Origin: a virus
Virus record (IMG/VR): IMGVR_UViG_3300042563_002495
Coordinates: 1 to 56,958 of that record
Reading direction: 5' to 3' (one strand)
DNA length: 56,958 bases
In this document: piece after piece, positions 1 through 56,958 of the stretch
How the letters are laid out: every line of letters starts with the position of its first letter
Numbering within the stretch: the first letter of the stretch is position 1
Position numbers and translations under genes: made by a program
The notes under the pieces: model-generated
What the model saw: the letters and a program-made list of their open reading frames with translations, nothing else
What the model was told of the DNA's origin: nothing
Database searches by the model: none

Positions 1-219
1 GACATGATTCAAGTTGGTAATTTCTTCTCAATGTGTCTATTTTCAAAAGTGTTGCATTTCTTACCACAAGTTTATAATGAAACCGGTCTTTTGTGTCCAC
101 ATGTTATCTCTGAACAATTCATCCGCAGACTTGGATTGCCATGGGAAGAATTTATGATTAACAAAACGATTATGCATACACCACTTGGTGAATACAAACA
201 CAAGAGTCTCTATCAATGA
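1..219 (+). CDS. C-terminal end of a WavE-like/glycosyltransferase-like protein (partial)
   Basis: The reading frame is open at the left edge, so only the last ~72 codons are visible. The segment with GLLCPHVISEQFIRRLGLP and a following HTP resembles the C-terminal part of the protein at 643-1368 (GHEMLHEQLL, then DHPFT), so I infer the same kind of surface-glycan synthesis protein. The stop overlaps the next start (ATGA). No catalytic motif is visible in the fragment. Confidence 0.45.
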   Translation, partial: DMIQVGNFFSMCLFSKVLHFLPQVYNETGLLCPHVISEQFIRRLGLPWEEFMINKTIMHTPLGEYKHKSLYQ

Positions 220-695
220 AAATGATTGCACATCGTGGTCTATTTGAAGGACCCGACAAAGGAAAAGAAAATCGTCCCAGTCAAATCCTATTGGCGTTGG
301 AAAAAGGATATGACTGTGAGATTGATCTTTGGTGGATAAAAGACCAGTGGTGGCTGGGGCATGATGAGCCACAATATATGGTCAAAGAAGAATTCATCGG
401 CAAACAAGGCCTTTGGCTACACTGTAAAAACTTAGATGCACTACACGAATTAATTGGTAGACCATTCAAGTATGTTTATTTTTGGCACCAAGAAGATGAT
501 TTCACACTAACATCAAATGATGTTATTTGGACATATCCCGGAAAAAAATTAACAAGCAAATCAGTTGCGGTCATGCCTGAAAGGTGTCCTTCCTATTGGG
601 AATATATAAAGGGTCGAAACCTTATTGGAGTCTGTACTGATTATGTCGAAAAATTCATCTCTGAAACTAGCACTGTGTCTGTCGGGACAAGCTAG
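216..695 (+). CDS. Glycerophosphodiester phosphodiesterase-like protein
   Basis: 159 residues. The N-terminus reads AHRG at 4-7, ENRP near 18, an acidic EIDLW near 35 and GHDEP near 48. This matches the order of active-site motifs in the GDPD/PI-PLC-like TIM-barrel family (HR, E, E/D, H), which hydrolyses glycerophosphodiesters. It is shorter than typical cellular GDPD enzymes (~250 aa) and may be a minimal phage version. It lies between glycan-type genes, which suggests a role in surface polysaccharide or teichoic-type substrate modification. The 3' end overlaps the next gene by 53 nt. Family call is fairly good; substrate is unknown. Confidence 0.65.
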   Translation: MKMIAHRGLFEGPDKGKENRPSQILLALEKGYDCEIDLWWIKDQWWLGHDEPQYMVKEEFIGKQGLWLHCKNLDALHELIGRPFKYVYFWHQEDDFTLTSNDVIWTYPGKKLTSKSVAVMPERCPSYWEYIKGRNLIGVCTDYVEKFISETSTVSVGTS

Positions 696-1368
696 AAGTT
701 TATTTCAAGCAAAAAACTACATTAAGAGAAATCTTTTAGATATTTACAATGTAGATGTTTTCTGCCATACATGGAAACCACAGGGTGGTATAATCCAGAT
801 GAAGATGTATGAAGATATAAATTTCATCTACGATCCAATATATCTGGCATACGATATGCCATTACCGGCAACAACAAACTCCGACATGTTTGTTCCGAAT
901 GCTTCACATCCAGCTAATTTCTGTACGTCAATGTTTTATTCAATTTATAAAGCAAACGACCTGAGAATTCGCCATCAAGTTTTAAATGATGTAAAATATG
1001 ACTTTGTTATACGAAGTAGGTTTGACCTAGCACTCAATAAAGTCATAGACTTTTCTTCTCTGGAAAAAGGCAAAGTGTATATATCGAAAGACACTGATGG
1101 ACCTAATCCATTATTGAATGACCAATTTGCCATTGCTGATCCAGACACAATGAATGTTTACGCTTCAACATATTTAAATTTGAGGCGCCTCGGTGTTCCT
1201 CTTTGTGGCCACGAAATGCTACATGAGCAACTACTAAGAAATTCTATACCAGTTGAACGTATTGATATTGACCACCCTTTTACGGATGGTAAATTTAACA
1301 TTGGAAAGCATTCCTTGATTAGAGAAGATATGGATAAATGGGTGGATATTAAGATTTGGGGTTACTAA
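643..1368 (+). CDS. WavE-like lipopolysaccharide synthesis / glycosyltransferase-like protein
   Basis: 241 residues from ATG 643; a TTG at 625 is in frame but less likely. The start LALCLSGQARSLFQ, the motif FVIRSRFDL and NDQFAIADPDTM, and a GHEMLHEQLL segment match the WavE-type family of LPS core synthesis proteins also carried by several T4-type phages. It probably adds or transfers sugars on phage or host glycans. It follows the GDPD-like gene with a 53-nt overlap. The stop codon lies inside a CTAAATAA box that resembles a T4-type late promoter for the next gene. Confidence 0.6.
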   Translation: MSKNSSLKLALCLSGQARSLFQAKNYIKRNLLDIYNVDVFCHTWKPQGGIIQMKMYEDINFIYDPIYLAYDMPLPATTNSDMFVPNASHPANFCTSMFYSIYKANDLRIRHQVLNDVKYDFVIRSRFDLALNKVIDFSSLEKGKVYISKDTDGPNPLLNDQFAIADPDTMNVYASTYLNLRRLGVPLCGHEMLHEQLLRNSIPVERIDIDHPFTDGKFNIGKHSLIREDMDKWVDIKIWGY

Positions 1369-1372
1369 ATAA
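1365..1372 (+). promoter_or_regulatory. Late-promoter-like box CTAAATAA
   Basis: CTAAATAA overlaps the stop codon of the upstream gene and sits 51 nt before the start at 1423. The T4 late promoter is TATAAATA; CTAAATA-type variants are known from T4-like cyanophages. The same 8-mer recurs at 45617 and 45882, also on stop codons. Confidence 0.45.
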
Positions 1373-1422
1373 GTAAAGAGTTGACCAAAGTGTGTTGACA
1401 GTCGCATCTCGGAGAGTAATAA

Positions 1423-2760
1423 ATGAAACCCTTTAGACACTGGCTTAATGAAAGTTTCGGTGAAGACCACAAATACTCGGCACTAAAGCCACACCATTCC
1501 TATAAAACTTCAGATGGTCATGATATTAATGTTCATGTGTTTAATAATGTCCGCGGCAAACACGCGGTATTTTTTAATAAAGATTTAAATCAGGTAACCA
1601 AACTCGTACACTGGTCGAATGGATCAGATACACCATCAAAGTCGGACTTAGAAAAAGCGGGTTACGATTCCGAATCTTTACATGAAGAAGCTGGATTGAC
1701 ACCAGATTCCGCAGGAAAAATCTCAGAATACTCTGCTGCCATTCATATGTTAGGCCACAAACATAAAGATTTGGGTACATATGGAACTGATGAACATTAT
1801 AAAGAAACTCAACCACACGAAGAAGCTATTCGTAAACTAGCCGTGGGAAAAAATGCACAGCAAGTTGGTATTAGAAAACGACATGGCCAAGAGATGGCTA
1901 GTGCCGCCTTAGAAGCAATAATGTTAAAACATGGTCCTGATGCAAAGATCACTGATGTTGGCCACACATCAAAACTTGGTGATATTGGACGTTTCACTAA
2001 AGGTAAACATAACGACTCGCAAGAAAATCCATCAGACATTGCAGTTGAAGTTAAAAATTCTTCACTCGCCAGAACACCTGATGATTCACACTATGAAGGT
2101 TTTTCGTTAAAATCGTCAAGTAAATCTAGTGCTATCACAGCGAAGAATCCTGCTATTGATATGAAGGGTATTTTACACCACGAAACCAGGGTGCTTGATT
2201 CGGAAAAAGTTTCCAGAGATGGATTACGAAAAGTACATAAGGCCATGGGTTATGGTGATATTTCTGCGGCCAATAGATCAAGAATACTAGACGTTGAAAG
2301 GAAGAAAAAGAAATCCGATCAAAAAATGACAGATTTGGAATCCACGGCAAACGAAAAAGCAAAACCAGTTAAAACAAAAATTTCATCGGAATTTCATGAC
2401 CACCTATCACATTTAATAAATAATATTGGTCAAGAAGGTCATAATATGATTGGAAAAATGTTGCAGAATCATTTGACTCCAACAACAAGTATGCCTTGGT
2501 CAAAAATACATGCTAAAGGTGACACTTTAACTAAAGTACATGCAACTGTTACTTCAGGAAGTGAATCACCTCTGAATAGAGTGTTTAAAAATAAAAATTC
2601 GAAATATGCCGCCACACAACATGGTGATAGAGTGAGCATACATAAGGTTGAAAAAGACGGAAGTTTGACCACCTTAGCACACTATTCACCTAAAACTAAA
2701 AGCAATGCATTCAAATCGGACGTACATGGTTGGAACGTAATTCCAGCCAAAGTTCACTAA
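1423..2760 (+). CDS. Putative internal head protein, possible nuclease-like fold
   Basis: 445 residues with a good Shine-Dalgarno (GGAGAG) upstream. The first ten residues MKPFRHWLNE fit the T4 capsid-targeting pattern with a prohead protease site (L8-x-E10), so the protein is probably packaged in the head, trimmed and injected. In the middle, NPSDIAVEVKNSS followed by YEGFSLKSS resembles the spacing of PD-(D/E)XK-type nucleases (PSD...EVK, then SLK), but the assignment is weak. The rest is hydrophilic and His/Lys-rich. Followed after 1 nt by another tagged gene. I do not recognise a named family. Confidence 0.55.
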   Translation: MKPFRHWLNESFGEDHKYSALKPHHSYKTSDGHDINVHVFNNVRGKHAVFFNKDLNQVTKLVHWSNGSDTPSKSDLEKAGYDSESLHEEAGLTPDSAGKISEYSAAIHMLGHKHKDLGTYGTDEHYKETQPHEEAIRKLAVGKNAQQVGIRKRHGQEMASAALEAIMLKHGPDAKITDVGHTSKLGDIGRFTKGKHNDSQENPSDIAVEVKNSSLARTPDDSHYEGFSLKSSSKSSAITAKNPAIDMKGILHHETRVLDSEKVSRDGLRKVHKAMGYGDISAANRSRILDVERKKKKSDQKMTDLESTANEKAKPVKTKISSEFHDHLSHLINNIGQEGHNMIGKMLQNHLTPTTSMPWSKIHAKGDTLTKVHATVTSGSESPLNRVFKNKNSKYAATQHGDRVSIHKVEKDGSLTTLAHYSPKTKSNAFKSDVHGWNVIPAKVH

Positions 2761-2761
2761 T

Positions 2762-3958
2762 ATGAAAACATTTAATATATTTTTAAAAGAGCAAGAAGAT
2801 CCTGAAGAAGGAGCAAGCCGTCAGATTAAACATCTTACGCACATAGAAGATCGCCCACTCCAGAACGGAGAGAGTGGTGCTAAACATGCTATCGTTTCAT
2901 TAACTGCGGCCGCGCAACATATACAGCAGGGTAAAAAAACTTCCGAACTTACAACAAAGTATGATGGTTCTCCTGCTATTGTGTATGGCCATCACCCAGA
3001 GACAGGTAAGTTTTTTGTAGCATCAAAATCAGCATTCAATAAGACACCAAAAATTAATTACACATCTGCTGATATCGAAAAAAACCACGGACACGCACCT
3101 GGTTTAGTAAAGAAATTAGGAGATGCACTAAAGCATTTACCCAAAGTTGCACCTAAAAAAGGTGTATATCAAGGTGACATGATGTTCTCACACGAAGATA
3201 AAACGCCAACAAAGAGTGGTGGTGTTTCTTTTCATCCAAATCCATCCGGCTTGACCTATACTGCACATGGAACACATGGTGACTCAGTTAAAAAAGCAAA
3301 GATTGGTGTTGTTACACACCTTTCATATACAGGTAAAGATGCGGGAAGCCTGAATGCTTCACATGAAGTTGACCATGAAAATTTCAAACCACACTCTGAT
3401 GTATTCTCGGTTGATCCTAGAATGGATACATCAAAAGTACATTTCGGTCCTAAAGATCGTGCTGAATTCAACAAACACATTGCGGCCGCACAATCTGTGC
3501 ATGATACACATGGTTCGGACATGTATGCAGGAACATCAACACATCACGGTGCCGGTGGCCACTTAGAAACTTATATGAACCACACTGTTCGTACAGGTGA
3601 AACGCCAAACCATCAGAATTTTTCCAATTGGTTAGAAAATAAGAAGAATAAAGAAATCGACAAGCTGAAAGTTGAAAAGAACCGAACTTCTAAACAAAAT
3701 GATTTAAAAGATGAATTGGGTAAAGTTGACCGAAACCGAAAACACTACAATAATTTGTTTAAGATGCACCAGCATTTACAGAAAGCAAAAAATGTGCTCA
3801 TTAATGTAATGAATCAGCACCAAGAGTTTCAACATGAACATGGTGGTGAAGCGGCTAATCCAGAAGGTTATGTCTTTCATCATGGAAAAGAATCAGATAA
3901 ATTTGTTAATCGTGCAGAATTTTCCCGTAGAAACTTTGCAGGAATCAGAAACATATGA
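2762..3958 (+). CDS. Ligase/nucleotidyltransferase-like protein with capsid-targeting N-terminus
   Basis: 398 residues. The N-terminus MKTFNIFLKE fits the head-targeting tag with a cleavage site L8-K9-E10. KYDG at 66-69 matches motif I (KxDG) of covalent nucleotidyltransferases (DNA/RNA ligases), where Lys is adenylated. QGDMMF at 137-142, GVVTHLSY near 182 and EGYVF at 368-372 could be motifs III, IIIa and IV; FVNR at 381-384 could be the motif V region. If correct this is an ATP-grasp-like ligase delivered with the DNA. The tail has a coiled-coil-like stretch (about 285-350). Overlaps the next gene by 4 nt. Catalysis is inferred only. Confidence 0.55.
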   Translation: MKTFNIFLKEQEDPEEGASRQIKHLTHIEDRPLQNGESGAKHAIVSLTAAAQHIQQGKKTSELTTKYDGSPAIVYGHHPETGKFFVASKSAFNKTPKINYTSADIEKNHGHAPGLVKKLGDALKHLPKVAPKKGVYQGDMMFSHEDKTPTKSGGVSFHPNPSGLTYTAHGTHGDSVKKAKIGVVTHLSYTGKDAGSLNASHEVDHENFKPHSDVFSVDPRMDTSKVHFGPKDRAEFNKHIAAAQSVHDTHGSDMYAGTSTHHGAGGHLETYMNHTVRTGETPNHQNFSNWLENKKNKEIDKLKVEKNRTSKQNDLKDELGKVDRNRKHYNNLFKMHQHLQKAKNVLINVMNQHQEFQHEHGGEAANPEGYVFHHGKESDKFVNRAEFSRRNFAGIRNI

Positions 3959-51353: not shown

Positions 51354-52814
51354 ATGGAATATTTTCATTGGGGTATTGAAGGTTGGTTTGATGCACCTCA
51401 ATCAAACATATACGCTGAGATGGTTAAATCAGCAAAAGACGGAGCACATTTTGTTGAAATTGGCGCATGGAAAGGAAAATCAACTTCCTTTATGGCCGTC
51501 GAAATTAAAAATTCTGGCAAAAAAATTAAATTTGACGTTGTTGACACATTTAAAGGATCACCAGAACATCAAAATCTACCGTGTATTATAAATGATACAC
51601 TATATCAGGAATATTTAAGCAATATTGAACCTGTAAAAAAATATGTGAACACTATAGTTGGCGACAGTTCAAACATTGCAGGAATGTATGCGGATGATTC
51701 ACTAGATTTCGTTTTCATTGATGGTGACCACACACTTGAGGGTGTGCGTAGAGACATTATGGCATGGTTCGATAAAGTTAAGCCAGGTGGATATCTATGT
51801 GGTAATGATGTTTTCCAAAAAGGTCATGATGGAGTGCATCAAGCAATTATGCAGTTACTTGATAACGTTGACATTTATCAGAATAATTGGATATACAAAA
51901 AACCAAAAATCGTTGAACACCTGGTTGAGGTAAATACGGATACTCACTTGAGTGTATATAATAATTACGACACAATTGTAGATTGTGCATATGTTATCAC
52001 TCTTCCGGGAAATGAAACTTCAGAAAAATGCACAGCAAGGTGTGTCGATTCCCTAAATGCTGTCGGTATGAAGTATGAACTATTTCCAGGTTTCGATGGA
52101 ACAGACAGAAAAGTTATCAAAACGCCGGATCACTTGAAGGATCAGCAATGGATCAAGTGGATCAAGGTTGCGGATCATCTATTGTCGCCTTCCGAAATTG
52201 CATGTGCAATGAGTCACATTGCTTTATGGGCACATTGTGTGAGCATTAATAAACCAATCGTGATTCTCGAACATGATGCATTGATGCTGAAAAAATATAC
52301 AAAAATGCCAGGTCTGTGTTGTGTCGATACACTAGGACATATGTACTGGACAAATGAAGCAATAGCGAAATTAAAATTACAAAATATAAGTATGCTTCAG
52401 GAATATTTAAAAGAAAATGAATTGCATACCTTCAATGATTTTCCATTTTTAAATGTTGCAAATGAAAACTACTTGTATCAGTTGGGTCAACATGCATATG
52501 CAATAGATCCATATGCGGCAAAGAAGCTATTGACTACAGTTATAAATCAAGGCCTGACTCAACCCAACGACACACTCGTCAACATAAATGATATCGCAAT
52601 AATTACATCAGGTTTCTTTGCCGCACAGAACACCAACGCATTTGATGAGTCAACAATTAGACCAGAAACACTTAAACGATATGACATCGAAAATTTCGAT
52701 CATCGAAAGCCCACATGTTTTGTGCCTGGTGTAAGCCGAATCGTTAAAAATAGTGATGTAATGCAAGAACCTGCATGGAATAAAGATAATGGAGACAAAT
52801 TATGGATAAAATAA
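51354..52814 (+). CDS. SAM methyltransferase fused to GT25-like glycosyltransferase
   Basis: 486 residues. The N-terminal ~190 residues are a class I methyltransferase: FVEIGAWKGKST (34-45, SAM loop), VVDTFKGSPEH, DFVFIDGDHTLEGVRRDI. The C-terminal ~290 residues begin CAYVITLPGNE and carry SPSEIACAMSHIALWAHCVS plus IVILEHDA, typical of GT25 (LPS/collagen Gal) enzymes. It likely makes O-methylated sugars or modifies a glycan. The 3' end overlaps the next gene by 13 nt. Confidence 0.75.
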   Translation: MEYFHWGIEGWFDAPQSNIYAEMVKSAKDGAHFVEIGAWKGKSTSFMAVEIKNSGKKIKFDVVDTFKGSPEHQNLPCIINDTLYQEYLSNIEPVKKYVNTIVGDSSNIAGMYADDSLDFVFIDGDHTLEGVRRDIMAWFDKVKPGGYLCGNDVFQKGHDGVHQAIMQLLDNVDIYQNNWIYKKPKIVEHLVEVNTDTHLSVYNNYDTIVDCAYVITLPGNETSEKCTARCVDSLNAVGMKYELFPGFDGTDRKVIKTPDHLKDQQWIKWIKVADHLLSPSEIACAMSHIALWAHCVSINKPIVILEHDALMLKKYTKMPGLCCVDTLGHMYWTNEAIAKLKLQNISMLQEYLKENELHTFNDFPFLNVANENYLYQLGQHAYAIDPYAAKKLLTTVINQGLTQPNDTLVNINDIAIITSGFFAAQNTNAFDESTIRPETLKRYDIENFDHRKPTCFVPGVSRIVKNSDVMQEPAWNKDNGDKLWIK

Positions 52815-53518: not shown

Positions 53519-54690
53519 GCAGTCTCTAGAGCAGTAATTCTCTGTTCAAGTGTTGTTATTTGCGCTTGTTGTTGGTCAACAATAGCTTTTAGTTCTTTAA
53601 CTGCCGACACAAGCGGAGCAACCATAAATGATGTGTCGATTCCTTGATAGAGAGGCTCATCTCTGAAGTGTGTCCATGTGTAACCTTCGCTGGCATATCT
53701 TGCGGCATCTTCTTCGGATGGTTCTGGAACTTGTAACTCCTCATCACTTTCCATGGCAAGTTTAGCATCACCGTTTGCATCAATTAGTTTACCAAAACGT
53801 ATGACTTCATCTTTTTTACCACTCACTGAACCTGCAATTTGTGGCGCATCTTCTTGAACTTCATGAGCAATAAAGCCCATATCTTCTTCATTATTTATTT
53901 TCCATGTCCACGATCTTGGTCTAAGTGCCGCAATAATGTCGAGTCCTGATTCAACAGGATTGATATTTTCTTTTAGTCTGTAATCCGAACTTGTCGAATA
54001 ACTTGTTGTTGTGGATGAAGTAAAAATGGAACCAGTTTCTGTAGGTCCATTTTGAAACGCCATATAAACTGATGGACCAGTGGTGGGAAATTGACTTCTA
54101 TGATGTAGATATACCAGTGGCGTGTTGACAGAACCGGGGTTAGGACTTTTGTTGACAATTTTAAGTCCGATGGCACTGACACCGGTAGAAACATTGTCAT
54201 TTCCTTCCACTACCAATCTATTTTTGACAATCGTACCAAAATTATTCACAGCTAAACCTGAGTCTATAGTCGGAAGGTTACTGTATACCATAGGTTGACC
54301 AATTGGGCCGGACGATGGATTGTCGTATGCGCCAACTTGGGCTGATATATCTGTATTTTCAGTACTCGCAGGTGAACTGGTAGTAGTATATAAATGTGCA
54401 TATGCCGTTGATACAGCTGGACCTGAAGTCGAACTATAAAAATCAAGAACGGAAACACCATTTGCCGTACCTCTTGCCCAATTGGCGCCGGCTGGCGCCG
54501 CATTGCTAGTTATTCCACTGGAGATTCTAGTCCTAATTCTGCTGCCGAAAAATTGATTCTTGTTAATCGCACTCATCGTACTTTGAGTCTCTATATCAAT
54601 CGTGCCTGAAACCGCAGGAGTCGATGGTGCATTTGTGTATGATAGAGGGTTGGTTACTGAAACTTTATCCGTTTTTAGTATTGATGACAT
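53515..54690 (-). CDS. Tail fibre/appendage protein with S74 intramolecular chaperone domain
   Basis: 391 residues on the minus strand, against the plus-strand neighbours. Ser/Thr/Asn-rich beta body (1-234). SDYRLKEN (235-242) starts the peptidase S74 endosialidase chaperone domain; self-cleavage normally occurs at the Ser of this motif. MGFIAHEVQED follows. The C-terminus is a coiled coil (VKELKAIVDQQQAQITTLEQ). It has its own late box TATAAATA upstream (54732-54725). Likely a receptor-binding appendage. Confidence 0.8.
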   Translation of the reverse strand: MSSILKTDKVSVTNPLSYTNAPSTPAVSGTIDIETQSTMSAINKNQFFGSRIRTRISSGITSNAAPAGANWARGTANGVSVLDFYSSTSGPAVSTAYAHLYTTTSSPASTENTDISAQVGAYDNPSSGPIGQPMVYSNLPTIDSGLAVNNFGTIVKNRLVVEGNDNVSTGVSAIGLKIVNKSPNPGSVNTPLVYLHHRSQFPTTGPSVYMAFQNGPTETGSIFTSSTTTSYSTSSDYRLKENINPVESGLDIIAALRPRSWTWKINNEEDMGFIAHEVQEDAPQIAGSVSGKKDEVIRFGKLIDANGDAKLAMESDEELQVPEPSEEDAARYASEGYTWTHFRDEPLYQGIDTSFMVAPLVSAVKELKAIVDQQQAQITTLEQRITALETA

Positions 54691-54724
54691 TTTGCACTTC
54701 CATGTTGTTATACATATATTTATG

Positions 54725-54732
54725 TATTTATA
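54725..54732 (-). promoter_or_regulatory. Perfect T4-type late promoter TATAAATA
   Basis: Minus strand TATAAATA 34 nt upstream of the fibre ATG (54690). Exactly the T4 late consensus recognised by the gp55 sigma-like factor. Confidence 0.7.
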
Positions 54733-54759
54733 ATTCTTATTTTGAAGAGGAGATAATTG

Positions 54760-55338
54760 ATGAACTTACCATATTTAACTGACTATATTTATGTGGCCCG
54801 AGGATTTTTAGATGACGAAATTTGTCAGAAAATAATCAGCGAAAATCAGAAACTGGATGATACCTGGTCACAACACAGTTGGACCACAACAGATGTGGAA
54901 ACTGGAAAATTAAAACAACATAGTAGAGATGAAGCTGAATTGTCGGTAAAGGGTGTTGATGATGAAACTGCTCAAATATTGATAGATGCTATAAACAATG
55001 CTATAATTTCATACCACAATAAAATTGGTGTAACGGGAGGCGTGTATGCACACATGAGCCATCCAAGAATAAATCGATACACACCAGGTTCAAACATGGC
55101 TAAGCACAATGATGCTATTTCATCACTTTTTGAAAAAGGTGTTGGTAGACCGACTCTTAGCATAGTGGGTGTTTTGAATGACAACTATTCCGGAGGAGAA
55201 TTTATTATGTTTGATAATATGAAAATACAAGTTCGGGCTGGTGATATTTTAATTTTTCCAGCAACCTTCATGTATACACATGAAGTCACAACCGTAACTG
55301 AGGGTGAACGTTGGTCTTTTGTTTCATGGGCATTTTGA
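54760..55338 (+). CDS. 2OG-Fe(II) oxygenase (PKHD/P4H-like)
   Basis: 192 residues from ATG 54760 (GAGGAGA upstream). HND (H116, D118), a distal THE (H174) and R184 form the Fe and 2-oxoglutarate sites; YSGGEFIMF and RAGDILIFPA fit the PKHD-type hydroxylase fold. It starts divergently from the fibre gene, whose product could be its substrate. One nt before the next oxygenase. Confidence 0.8.
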   Translation: MNLPYLTDYIYVARGFLDDEICQKIISENQKLDDTWSQHSWTTTDVETGKLKQHSRDEAELSVKGVDDETAQILIDAINNAIISYHNKIGVTGGVYAHMSHPRINRYTPGSNMAKHNDAISSLFEKGVGRPTLSIVGVLNDNYSGGEFIMFDNMKIQVRAGDILIFPATFMYTHEVTTVTEGERWSFVSWAF

Positions 55339-55339
55339 T

Positions 55340-56017
55340 ATGAGTGAATTTACTGTACATGCATTGTTTCCTATACCCGTTTGTGTTTTCAAATACAAAG
55401 ATGATGTTAAGCTGCAAAATTTCTTGAGAACACAAACAATTAAATCAAACTTTACTGACCCCAAAACACTTCGGCAAATTGCTCCTGTAAAAAAACTATA
55501 TGGCTCACATTCAGATGATGTTAAAGTGTTACGTAAACCCGAATGTGCGGATTTACGTAAGTTTATACTCGACAATTGTAAAATTGTTGGTAATACGGTC
55601 TTAGGTTATAATGCACCCGAATATATTGATGTGTTATCTTGGATATCAATCAAATCACCAGGCGAAGAACACGTTCCACACATACATCCAAATTCCTTCA
55701 TTTCCGGTGTTTTCTACTTTGATGCGAACGTTGAAAAATGTCCAATAATTTTTGGTGATCCTGGTGTAGTGGCGGCAAAACAAAATACGATTTCTTTACC
55801 GAGAGAAAGTAAATCGGAGTCAACTTTTGCTGTGGAATCTATTTTATTGGATATAAGACAAGGTGAGTTGGTATTATTTCCATCTTATCTGAAACACATG
55901 GTAGAAACGAACAGAACTAACTCAAATAGATATTCGTTAGCATTCAATGTAGTTCCTAGATACTCTGTCGGTTCTCAAAATGAATTAACATTTTTTAATT
56001 ATGGAGACGCCATATAA
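55340..56017 (+). CDS. 2OG-Fe(II) oxygenase-like protein
   Basis: 225 residues from ATG 55340. VLSWISIKSPGEEHVPHIHP and NSFISGVFYFD with HxHPNSFxSGVxYF, GELVLFPSYLKHMVE and a late NRYSLAFNV Arg fit the TIGR02466-like 2OG oxygenase group. Clear paralogue of the next gene (shared HPNSFISGV and LFPS motifs). Overlaps it by 1 nt. Confidence 0.75.
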   Translation: MSEFTVHALFPIPVCVFKYKDDVKLQNFLRTQTIKSNFTDPKTLRQIAPVKKLYGSHSDDVKVLRKPECADLRKFILDNCKIVGNTVLGYNAPEYIDVLSWISIKSPGEEHVPHIHPNSFISGVFYFDANVEKCPIIFGDPGVVAAKQNTISLPRESKSESTFAVESILLDIRQGELVLFPSYLKHMVETNRTNSNRYSLAFNVVPRYSVGSQNELTFFNYGDAI

Positions 56018-56685
56018 TGCAAGTCATTCCTATTTTTCCAACAGCAATTTTTGTTCAAGATATAAGTCTAACCACAACAGAACAGACCGCACTTATTTCC
56101 ACACATGTAACACCAGCCTTCACTGAAAAATTTCTGAATGGTGAATCCAACAGTGAGATGTGGTCGAATTTGTCTGACAATAAACAGGTGCTCAGAATGC
56201 CTGAGTTGAAAAACGTTCGAAATACGATTCTCGTCAATAGTAATACGCTTGTCAACCAAGTCATGGGCTACGATATCAAAGGAATGGTTGATGTTTTGTC
56301 ATGGATCAATCAAAAACCTTCGGATAGAGAACATAGAACACATACACATCCGAACAGTTTTATTTCTGGTGTTTTGTATTTTGATGATGTGTATGATGAA
56401 GATCAATCTATAGTTTTTGAAAAGCATCCAGGTGTGAACGCTGTATGTCAACTAATTCCAAAGCGAAGGGTCGATATTAACACAGAATTTTCAGCACAAC
56501 ATGCTATAATTCCTGCTCAAAAAGGTAGATTAGTTTTATTTCCATCCCACTTGCCACACTTTGTGCCTAAAGGTGAGCCTGGAAAAATAAGGCGAAGTTT
56601 ATCATTCAATTTGATGCCTGAAGGTAGCCTAGGTGATCTGATACAACTGACAGAATTTCAGTATATGACAGCACTTACACAGTAA
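56017..56685 (+). CDS. 2OG-Fe(II) oxygenase-like protein
   Basis: 222 residues. DVLSWINQKPSDREHRTHTH and PNSFISGVLYFDD, GRLVLFPSHLPHFVPKGE and IRRSLSFNLMP supply the HxH, distal His and Arg. Tandem paralogue of the gene before. Last protein-coding gene before the tmRNA promoter. Confidence 0.75.
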   Translation: MQVIPIFPTAIFVQDISLTTTEQTALISTHVTPAFTEKFLNGESNSEMWSNLSDNKQVLRMPELKNVRNTILVNSNTLVNQVMGYDIKGMVDVLSWINQKPSDREHRTHTHPNSFISGVLYFDDVYDEDQSIVFEKHPGVNAVCQLIPKRRVDINTEFSAQHAIIPAQKGRLVLFPSHLPHFVPKGEPGKIRRSLSFNLMPEGSLGDLIQLTEFQYMTALTQ

Positions 56686-56702
56686 ATTTACCACAAAAAC
56701 GC

Positions 56703-56731
56703 TTGACACCTAAATAAAAAACCTCTATAAT
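56703..56731 (+). promoter_or_regulatory. Consensus sigma70 promoter of the tmRNA gene
   Basis: TTGACA, 17-nt spacer, TATAAT: a perfect match to consensus. A CTAAATAA late-type box (56710-56717) lies within the spacer. Transcription would start near 56738. Confidence 0.85.
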
Positions 56732-56737
56732 AGGGGC

Positions 56738-56958
56738 TATGGTTGTATGAAGCAACTAGAAAAGTGTTCTGGACGGGGGTGCAAATCCCCCCACCTCCAC
56801 CAAAAGCATTTGCGTATTAGCCGAACCAGAAATGATGTATTCGGGGGAATGTAAATCGGGAAGTGCTTTTGATGGGGGTGTACTCAGCTATTCGACAGGG
56901 CAACAAGTACAGAAGTGGACAACTCACCAGAGTAGGTGTAAAAACTAAATCAAAGTAA
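56738..56958 (+). ncRNA. ssrA: Circularly permuted (two-piece) tmRNA gene, 3' truncated by window end
   Basis: The acceptor piece comes first. T arm: GGGGG (56776-56780), loop TGCAAAT (56781-56787), CCCCC (56788-56792); acceptor 3' strand CACCTCC (56793-56799), discriminator A and CCA (56801-56803). The 5' piece begins at 56874 with GGGGGTG, which pairs with CACCTCC over 7 bp (one G-U), followed by the near-invariant ATTCGACAGGG (56890-56900) of the tmRNA D-domain. The pieces are split by 70 nt (56804-56873) closed by AAAAGCA/TGCTTTT, the loop to be excised. The tag reading frame is expected just past 56958, so tag and stop are not visible. The role would be trans-translation with host SmpB, rescuing stalled ribosomes and tagging peptides. 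No smpB is visible. The 5' end of the acceptor piece is estimated. Confidence 0.85.

Follow-up and report, generated by a model that had tools for sequence, protein, structure and literature searches.

A circularly permuted tmRNA gene in a predicted T4-like phage, with an alphaproteobacterial-type elbow and a tag tail unlike that of examined related bacteria

Does a virus whose contig ends inside a gene for transfer-messenger RNA (tmRNA) carry a working gene, and what would the encoded tag do? The question is raised by the IMG/VR record IMGVR_UViG_3300042563_002495, analysed here over its whole length of 56,958 nucleotides (nt; the window). Positions 56741-56958, at the right end of the window, make up the first part of a tmRNA gene in circularly permuted (two-piece) form, which is cut by the contig end. 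Comparison with related loci makes it highly probable that the whole is a functional permuted ssrA gene of a T4-like phage, encoding an ordinary tmRNA that would work with host SmpB.

A cmscan search of the whole window returns a single match above a curated cut-off, to family RF04321 (tmRNA_permuted), with a score of 77.1 bits (cut-off 47); the 3' end of the match is lost at the contig end. The match is not due to chance, because its E value is 4.4e-13 (both strands, 4227 families). The betaproteobacterial model RF01850 (beta_tmRNA) is absent from the window matches at the gathering threshold, the gene being truncated there, and the alphaproteobacterial model RF01849 (alpha_tmRNA) scores 29.2 bits, under its cut-off of 50. 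ARAGORN reports no gene in the window, which fits the truncation.

The complete gene is found in a second contig, IMGVR_UViG_3300044695_004134 (166,193 bases), which was located through the neighbouring 2-oxoglutarate (2OG) oxygenase gene. Window positions 1-3000 and 54000-56958 correspond to contig positions 115452-118451 and 61494-64452, each with 100% identity. By this comparison of both ends, the window is colinear with the 166-kilobase (kb) contig, since the matched span in the contig equals the window length. The tmRNA locus there, designated L122, scores 106.6 bits with RF04321 (cut-off 47) and 104.1 bits with RF01850 over model positions 1-331 (cut-off 84), the best of the clan. ARAGORN identifies a permuted tmRNA with the tag ANDSEYRLAA and a TGA stop. 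The tag frame, GCA AAC GAC AGT GAA TAT CGC CTA GCC GCT TGA, starts 2 nt past the window end, and the continuation of the coding piece is read at L122 4943-4977. Thus the two checks proposed in a preliminary description of the window, namely a covariance-model match (RF04321 in the window, RF01850 in the complete copy) and an open, stop-terminated tag frame with a hydrophobic-AA tail, both came out positive.

The anatomy of the gene, all on the plus strand, follows the permuted plan. The 3' (acceptor) piece spans 56741..56802 and contains, by RF04321 alignment and sequence reading, helix strands, GGAC, the T arm, the acceptor 3' strand, a discriminator A and an encoded CCA. Specifically, the T arm GGGGG-TGCAAAT-CCCCC occupies 56775-56791, with the T loop TGCAAAT at 56780..56786, and is followed by the acceptor strand CACCTCC (56792-56798), the A, and CCA (56800-56802). 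The 5' (coding) piece, 56874..56958, lies downstream and stops 2 nt short of the resume codon. It begins with the acceptor 5' strand GGGGGTG (56874-56880), followed by the D-loop AG (56886-56887), TTCGAC (56891-56896), and a pseudoknot stem, PK1, formed by CACC (56925-56928) and GGTG (56935-56938) in the RF04321 alignment. Both the permuted order and the 7-bp acceptor pairing of the preliminary description hold: the acceptor strands pair at 7/7 positions, with one G-U at the G3-U70 position. The G3-U70 pair, A73 and CCA are together the elements of alanine identity, according to the reported identity rule (PMC3968760).

Between the pieces lies an intervening segment, presumably excised, at 56803..56873. 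The closing stem AAAAGCA/TGCTTTT (56802-56808 / 56864-56870) is present as described; the segment is 71 nt long rather than 70, and the first A of the stem is the A of CCA. RNAfold gives -33.5 kcal/mol for an 89-nt stretch that includes both acceptor strands. Two further helices of the RF04321 structure line join the pieces: GTTGT (56742-56746) with ACAAC (56919-56923), and GTGTTCT (56764-56770) with AGGGCAA (56897-56903), the latter with 6/7 pairs, two of them G-U. Among 125 viral sequences, this second helix has a mean of 5.95/7 pairs, compared with 4.73 for shuffled partners and a maximum of 5.01 in 500 shuffles.

Upstream of the first conserved bases of the RNA, at 56741, is an exact-consensus σ70-type promoter, TTGACA (56703-56708), 17 nt, TATAAT (56726-56731), as had been claimed. 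Perfect 12/12 promoters with 17-nt spacing occur upstream of 9/120 viral permuted tmRNAs and in 0/341 control stretches, and scores of at least 10 in 41/120 and 10/341, respectively (8 edge loci dropped). We considered the promoter as a phage addition and rejected this, as the −35/−10 region lies within RF01850, the L122 match to which spans the promoter. The promoter is, on this model evidence, inherited architecture, because RF01850 covers the promoter region.

The preliminary description regarded a permuted tmRNA on a phage as unusual. This was not borne out: such genes are published (PMC9004378) and common in viral contigs, and the window tmRNA belongs to an already known kind, the phage two-piece tmRNA. 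A pattern of acceptor strands plus TTCGAC with a 40-70-nt spacer matches at least 120 viral stretches; it misses the window because the spacer there is 71 nt. Of 121 loci (120 among the matches listed, plus L122), ARAGORN reads 103 as tmRNAs, all of them permuted. Because the pattern fixes the acceptor stem, acceptor covariation is outside the reach of this set; in a second, tag-selected set, 38/41 sequences have 7 acceptor pairs, partly by construction, as the parser demanded at least 6/7. Of 133 distinct phage tmRNAs in PMC9004378, 53 are reported as two-piece, and marine or aquatic samples account for 50 of these; PMC11915505 describes RF04321 and counts 79 sequences from phages in the tmRNA database of 2025. 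The marine phage tmRNAs of OM43 phage Melnitz and Pelagibacter phage Mosig are reported to be likewise permuted ssrA genes in T4-like phages with an early-type promoter. Melnitz is reported to have a glutamine riboswitch, whereas L122 has no such riboswitch by Rfam at E ≤ 0.1. The alpha_tmRNA cut-off of 50 bits is exceeded by the tmRNAs of Mosig (67.6 bits) and HTVC008M (83.8 bits), whereas for L122 beta_tmRNA is the best of the clan. That the phage gene was captured from a bacterium with a two-piece tmRNA, as had been suggested, is plausible, as the complete copy passes RF01850.

L122 passes RF01850 over the full model, promoter included, yet the elbow formed by the D loop and T loop differs from that type. 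RF01850 has TTC/GG, whereas the window tmRNA has TGCAAAT rather than TTCRANT in the T loop, with G where transfer RNA (tRNA) has U55, and AG rather than GG in the D loop. The RF01849 consensus has the T loop GGCgGUA and the D loop uAGG, and Caulobacter shows the same elbow type, with G at the U342/U55 position (PMC1168896). The window tmRNA shares with both the D-loop AG and this G, and, unlike the RF01849 consensus, it retains U54 and A58. Mosig and HTVC008M have the alphaproteobacterial-type elbow as well. Thus, by model and by motif, the window tmRNA is beta-type with an alpha-type elbow. A phage invention of the elbow swap was considered and rejected: because RF01849 and Caulobacter share G55/AG, it is an alphaproteobacterial trait.

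The two halves of the elbow go together across viral tmRNAs. Among 128 unique parsed sequences, 118 fall into four cells: G55/AG 63, G55/GG 3, U55/AG 0 and U55/GG 52. The 10 rows outside these cells, the window phage included, are mostly register shifts, and in 2 of the 3 G55/GG rows (L010, L037) an AG lies one base farther to the 5' side. A further 18 of 188 rows could not be parsed. Fourteen of these have a legible elbow, in which U55 goes with GG and G55 with AG (L188, with T loop GGCAGTG and D loop TAG, fits too); L165 has no clear assignment. On a tmRNA tree built from short sequences without the elbow columns, at least 23-24 changes of T-loop state are required, and on supported branches the D loop follows the T loop in 9.9 of 10 independent pairs (sign test, p 0.002). 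In the window tmRNA, AG stands with G55, which predicts a D-loop/T-loop contact of the alpha-type variant. Six viral loci (L083 and similar; 4 unique rows) have the T loop GGCAGTA, near the alphaproteobacterial consensus, with G54 accompanied by G58.

Set against Burkholderiales, the change had looked phage-specific. In Burkholderiales, T-loop patterns are TTC in 322/389 and TGC in 1/389, that one lacking a T stem; phage tRNAs retain TTC in 85/104, with one TGC. The alpha elbow may have entered beta-type phage tmRNAs by exchange of the block from T arm to D loop, or by convergence. Since the permuted gene places T arm, spacer and D loop next to one another, both halves could be transferred in a single exchange. 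Under exchange or convergence alike, the pairing of D-loop and T-loop types, as read from the sequences, shows constraint on the elbow contact, which is reported to be needed for SmpB binding and function (PMC3968760).

The less expected feature is the tag tail, which differs from that of the related bacteria examined. Among the 103 ARAGORN tags, drawn from the matches listed, 89 end in ALAA; the others end in RLAA (5), in RMAA, RIAA, QLAA, KIAA, ELAA, LMAA, AIAA or AQAA (1 each), or in a doubtful GRPA (1). A search for 10-residue AND tags with codons CGN or AGN at position −4 yields 77 viral stretches, 63 with Arg and 14 with Ser. Sixty-two are confirmed by ARAGORN, all as permuted tmRNAs, and 10 of the remaining 15 have TTCGAC upstream; position −3 varies among Leu, Ile, Met and Val. 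By comparison, the Ala pattern occurs in 299/399 Burkholderiales genomes and the Arg/Ser pattern in 1/399 (Ser codons TCN were not searched for in bacteria). This single match (L125) is not a tmRNA: ARAGORN finds none there, and identifies elsewhere in the same genome a permuted tmRNA with the tag ANDESYALAA. A strictly filtered RF01850 search of the Burkholderiales found 16/399 above the cut-off, which is no measure of prevalence; tags at 15 of these 16 loci end in [YF]A[LIM]AA, compared with YRLAA in L122, and the 16th (L221) has an odd ARAGORN tag. A narrower Arg/Ser pattern matches 3 stretches in 84,980 species genomes, one of them a tmRNA, compared with 41 of the 77 viral stretches. That tmRNA (L126 6855-7217, in a Bacteroidetes contig of a metagenome-assembled genome) is of standard form, has the tag ANDYSYRLAA, and is the sole bacterial tmRNA that matches the narrow pattern. 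The viral excess is an enrichment, not a rate, because the viral and bacterial collections differ in size and redundancy.

Among phages isolated on known hosts, Moby (Stenotrophomonas; ...TVRIAA) and Rb1 (Xanthomonas; ...ALRLAA) have Arg at −4. Their tmRNAs are permuted and show 78-79% identity over ~70 nt around the T arm, yet differ in having the canonical elbow TTC/GG and longer tags. Mosig (GEDNFALAA), HTVC008M (ANFNEYALAA), BUCT-ZZ01 and BUCTxx99 have no Arg/Ser-type tail. A link between elbow type and tag tail was rejected, no association being found across viral tmRNAs. In the ARAGORN reading, some viral tags, such as those of L136 and L053, have an extra N-terminal stretch (ANAANDEVFSLAA and AANDDTYEVYALAA, respectively).

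A neutral origin of the altered tail is a real possibility, short of probable: Arg or Ser at −4 would reflect drift, or mirror the tags of uncultured hosts, with no phage-specific purpose. When other residues at −4 were sought, three scans found 75, 7 and 24 stretches, with some overlap between them. Over all scans, the distinct contexts number Ser 57, Arg 46, Gln 10, Thr 6, Glu 3, Val 2, and Pro, Lys and Asn 1 each, with none for Gly or Asp in the viral scans. Ser, which a single change from Ala can produce, occurs no less often than Arg, and this speaks for some relaxation at this position. Bacterial Arg at −4 also exists, in the tags of C. trachomatis (ending RVAA) and M. tuberculosis (RLAA) tabulated in PMC12493166, and in L126. 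Pure drift is harder to reconcile with Arg, which outnumbers Thr, Glu, Val, Pro, Gly and Asp although an Ala codon must change twice to give it. The 26 or more changes of tail state on the tmRNA tree are another point against a neutral origin, as are the Burkholderiales, with the Ala form in 299/399 genomes and no tmRNA of the Arg/Ser form.

The tag ANDSEYRLAA retains the AAND...Y segment and the terminal LAA, and Arg replaces Ala8 of E. coli. Published determinants bear on each part: Ala8, Leu9 and Ala10 are reported as critical for E. coli ClpA (PMC12493166); AANDENY is assigned to SspB and ALAA to ClpX (PMC8512704); and for ClpXP the terminal Ala-Ala is reported as most important, with Leu or Tyr changes raising the Michaelis constant (KM) modestly (PMC7652416). 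Because of these determinants, proteins tagged with AANDSEYRLAA might still be delivered to ClpXP, with SspB, and to ClpAP to a lesser extent; the accessible text of these papers contains no test of an Arg8 variant. More broadly, we tentatively propose, as an unlikely possibility, a re-tuning of the tmRNA degron by phages. In this view, a widespread two-piece class would have swapped Ala8 for Arg, Ser or Gln while keeping the SspB segment and terminal AA, so that the phage and not the host would steer rescued proteins towards ClpXP rather than ClpAP or other proteases; repeated, coordinated switching of the elbow would adapt the RNA to the SmpB of new hosts. That the tail mainly lowers proteolysis, so that ribosomes are freed and proteins tagged while phage proteins are spared, seems improbable. 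It would fit the many viral tags in which Ser, Arg, Gln or Thr stands in place of Ala at −4, the variation at −3 in the Arg/Ser set, and the modest KM effect of Leu changes; the tag of the window phage, however, retains Leu.

If the gene functions, expression might proceed as follows. The transcript would start just upstream of 56741 and contain the acceptor piece, the hairpin spacer and then the coding piece. By analogy with known two-piece tmRNAs, the spacer would be removed by RNase P and 3'-processing enzymes of the host, and the two RNAs would stay joined by the acceptor stem and the inter-piece helices. Host alanyl-tRNA synthetase (AlaRS) would charge the tmRNA through the G-U pair, and host SmpB would bind the elbow. 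The tmRNA would then rescue stalled ribosomes and append A-ANDSEYRLAA. Tagged proteins would probably still go to ClpXP and, Ala8 being a reported ClpA determinant (PMC12493166), perhaps less to ClpAP.

Several points weigh against a functional phage gene of this kind. The window by itself lacks the tag and the 3' part, and the functional interpretation comes entirely from sequence comparison. Some temperate phages carry host ssrA fragments as integration scars. SmpB (PF01668) is found in 0/2 phage records (the window record and the matching contig), compared with 10/14 positive control genomes, and SspB in 0/2; the records may be incomplete. No phage-encoded SmpB, and thus no self-contained phage trans-translation system, is seen, and because SmpB and SspB are absent from the records, function would depend on the host. 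For the tail, the frequency of Ser weakens a reading of Arg as purely selected.

A decoy role, in which the RNA would sequester SmpB or stalled ribosomes and so hamper host trans-translation, is very unlikely. The absence of SmpB would suit this role, and the tRNA-domain-only tmRNA of mycobacteriophage DS6A is a precedent (PMC4131195; mentioned in PMC11915505), but a decoy would not need an open, stop-terminated tag in the conserved position, nor the same tag plan in most relatives. An ssrA fragment from prophage excision, or a bacterial contaminant, is hardly credible: ssrA is a known integration site, and the possibility has been raised for other phages (PMC9004378), but the gene is complete, has its promoter, and lies internally in a 166-kb, Gp23-bearing phage contig between 2OG oxygenase and cell wall hydrolase genes.

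The surroundings agree in character with a T4-like phage, as which the carrier is identified from its genes. The matching contig encodes the T4-type major capsid protein Gp23 (PF07068, 477.7 bits), and genes for ribonucleotide reductase, primase and tail proteins are present in the record. For a peptidase-family protein encoded in the window, there are matches in 463 phage records, most of them of Synechococcus phages; the best rows listed show ~35% identity. The upstream neighbour of the tmRNA encodes a 222-residue 2OG-Fe(II) oxygenase (56017..56685, plus strand; PF13759, 61.8 bits; phrog_81), within a run of three consecutive 2OG-Fe(II) oxygenase genes at 54757-56685 (PF13640, PF13759, PF13759). 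A single open reading frame (ORF) at 51354-52814 fuses a methyltransferase domain (PF13578) to a glycosyltransferase family 25 domain (PF01755). Immediately after the tmRNA, at L122 5017-5535 (minus strand), is a convergent 172-residue ORF whose start, YVYAYLRDNGTPYYIGKG, looks GIY-YIG-like by eye. It has no Pfam match at E ≤ 0.01 and is possibly a homing endonuclease. The next gene on the same strand as the tmRNA encodes a cell wall hydrolase (L122 5558-6112, plus strand; PF07486, 79.5 bits).

The purpose of a tmRNA of its own for a phage is debated: recycling, rescue and selective degradation have been proposed without test, and PMC9004378 proposes the tagging of host proteins. Our literature searches turned up no discussion of phage tmRNA tag tails, and the accessible text of PMC9004378 has 0 occurrences of ALAA or 'tag sequence'. 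That D-loop and T-loop types are so closely coupled provides comparative evidence for selection on these phage RNAs to fold and function, and against their being scars. The altered degron offers a lead that can be put to the test, as a tag that differs from those of related bacteria at one protease-reading residue makes the question of purpose addressable by a simple reporter assay.
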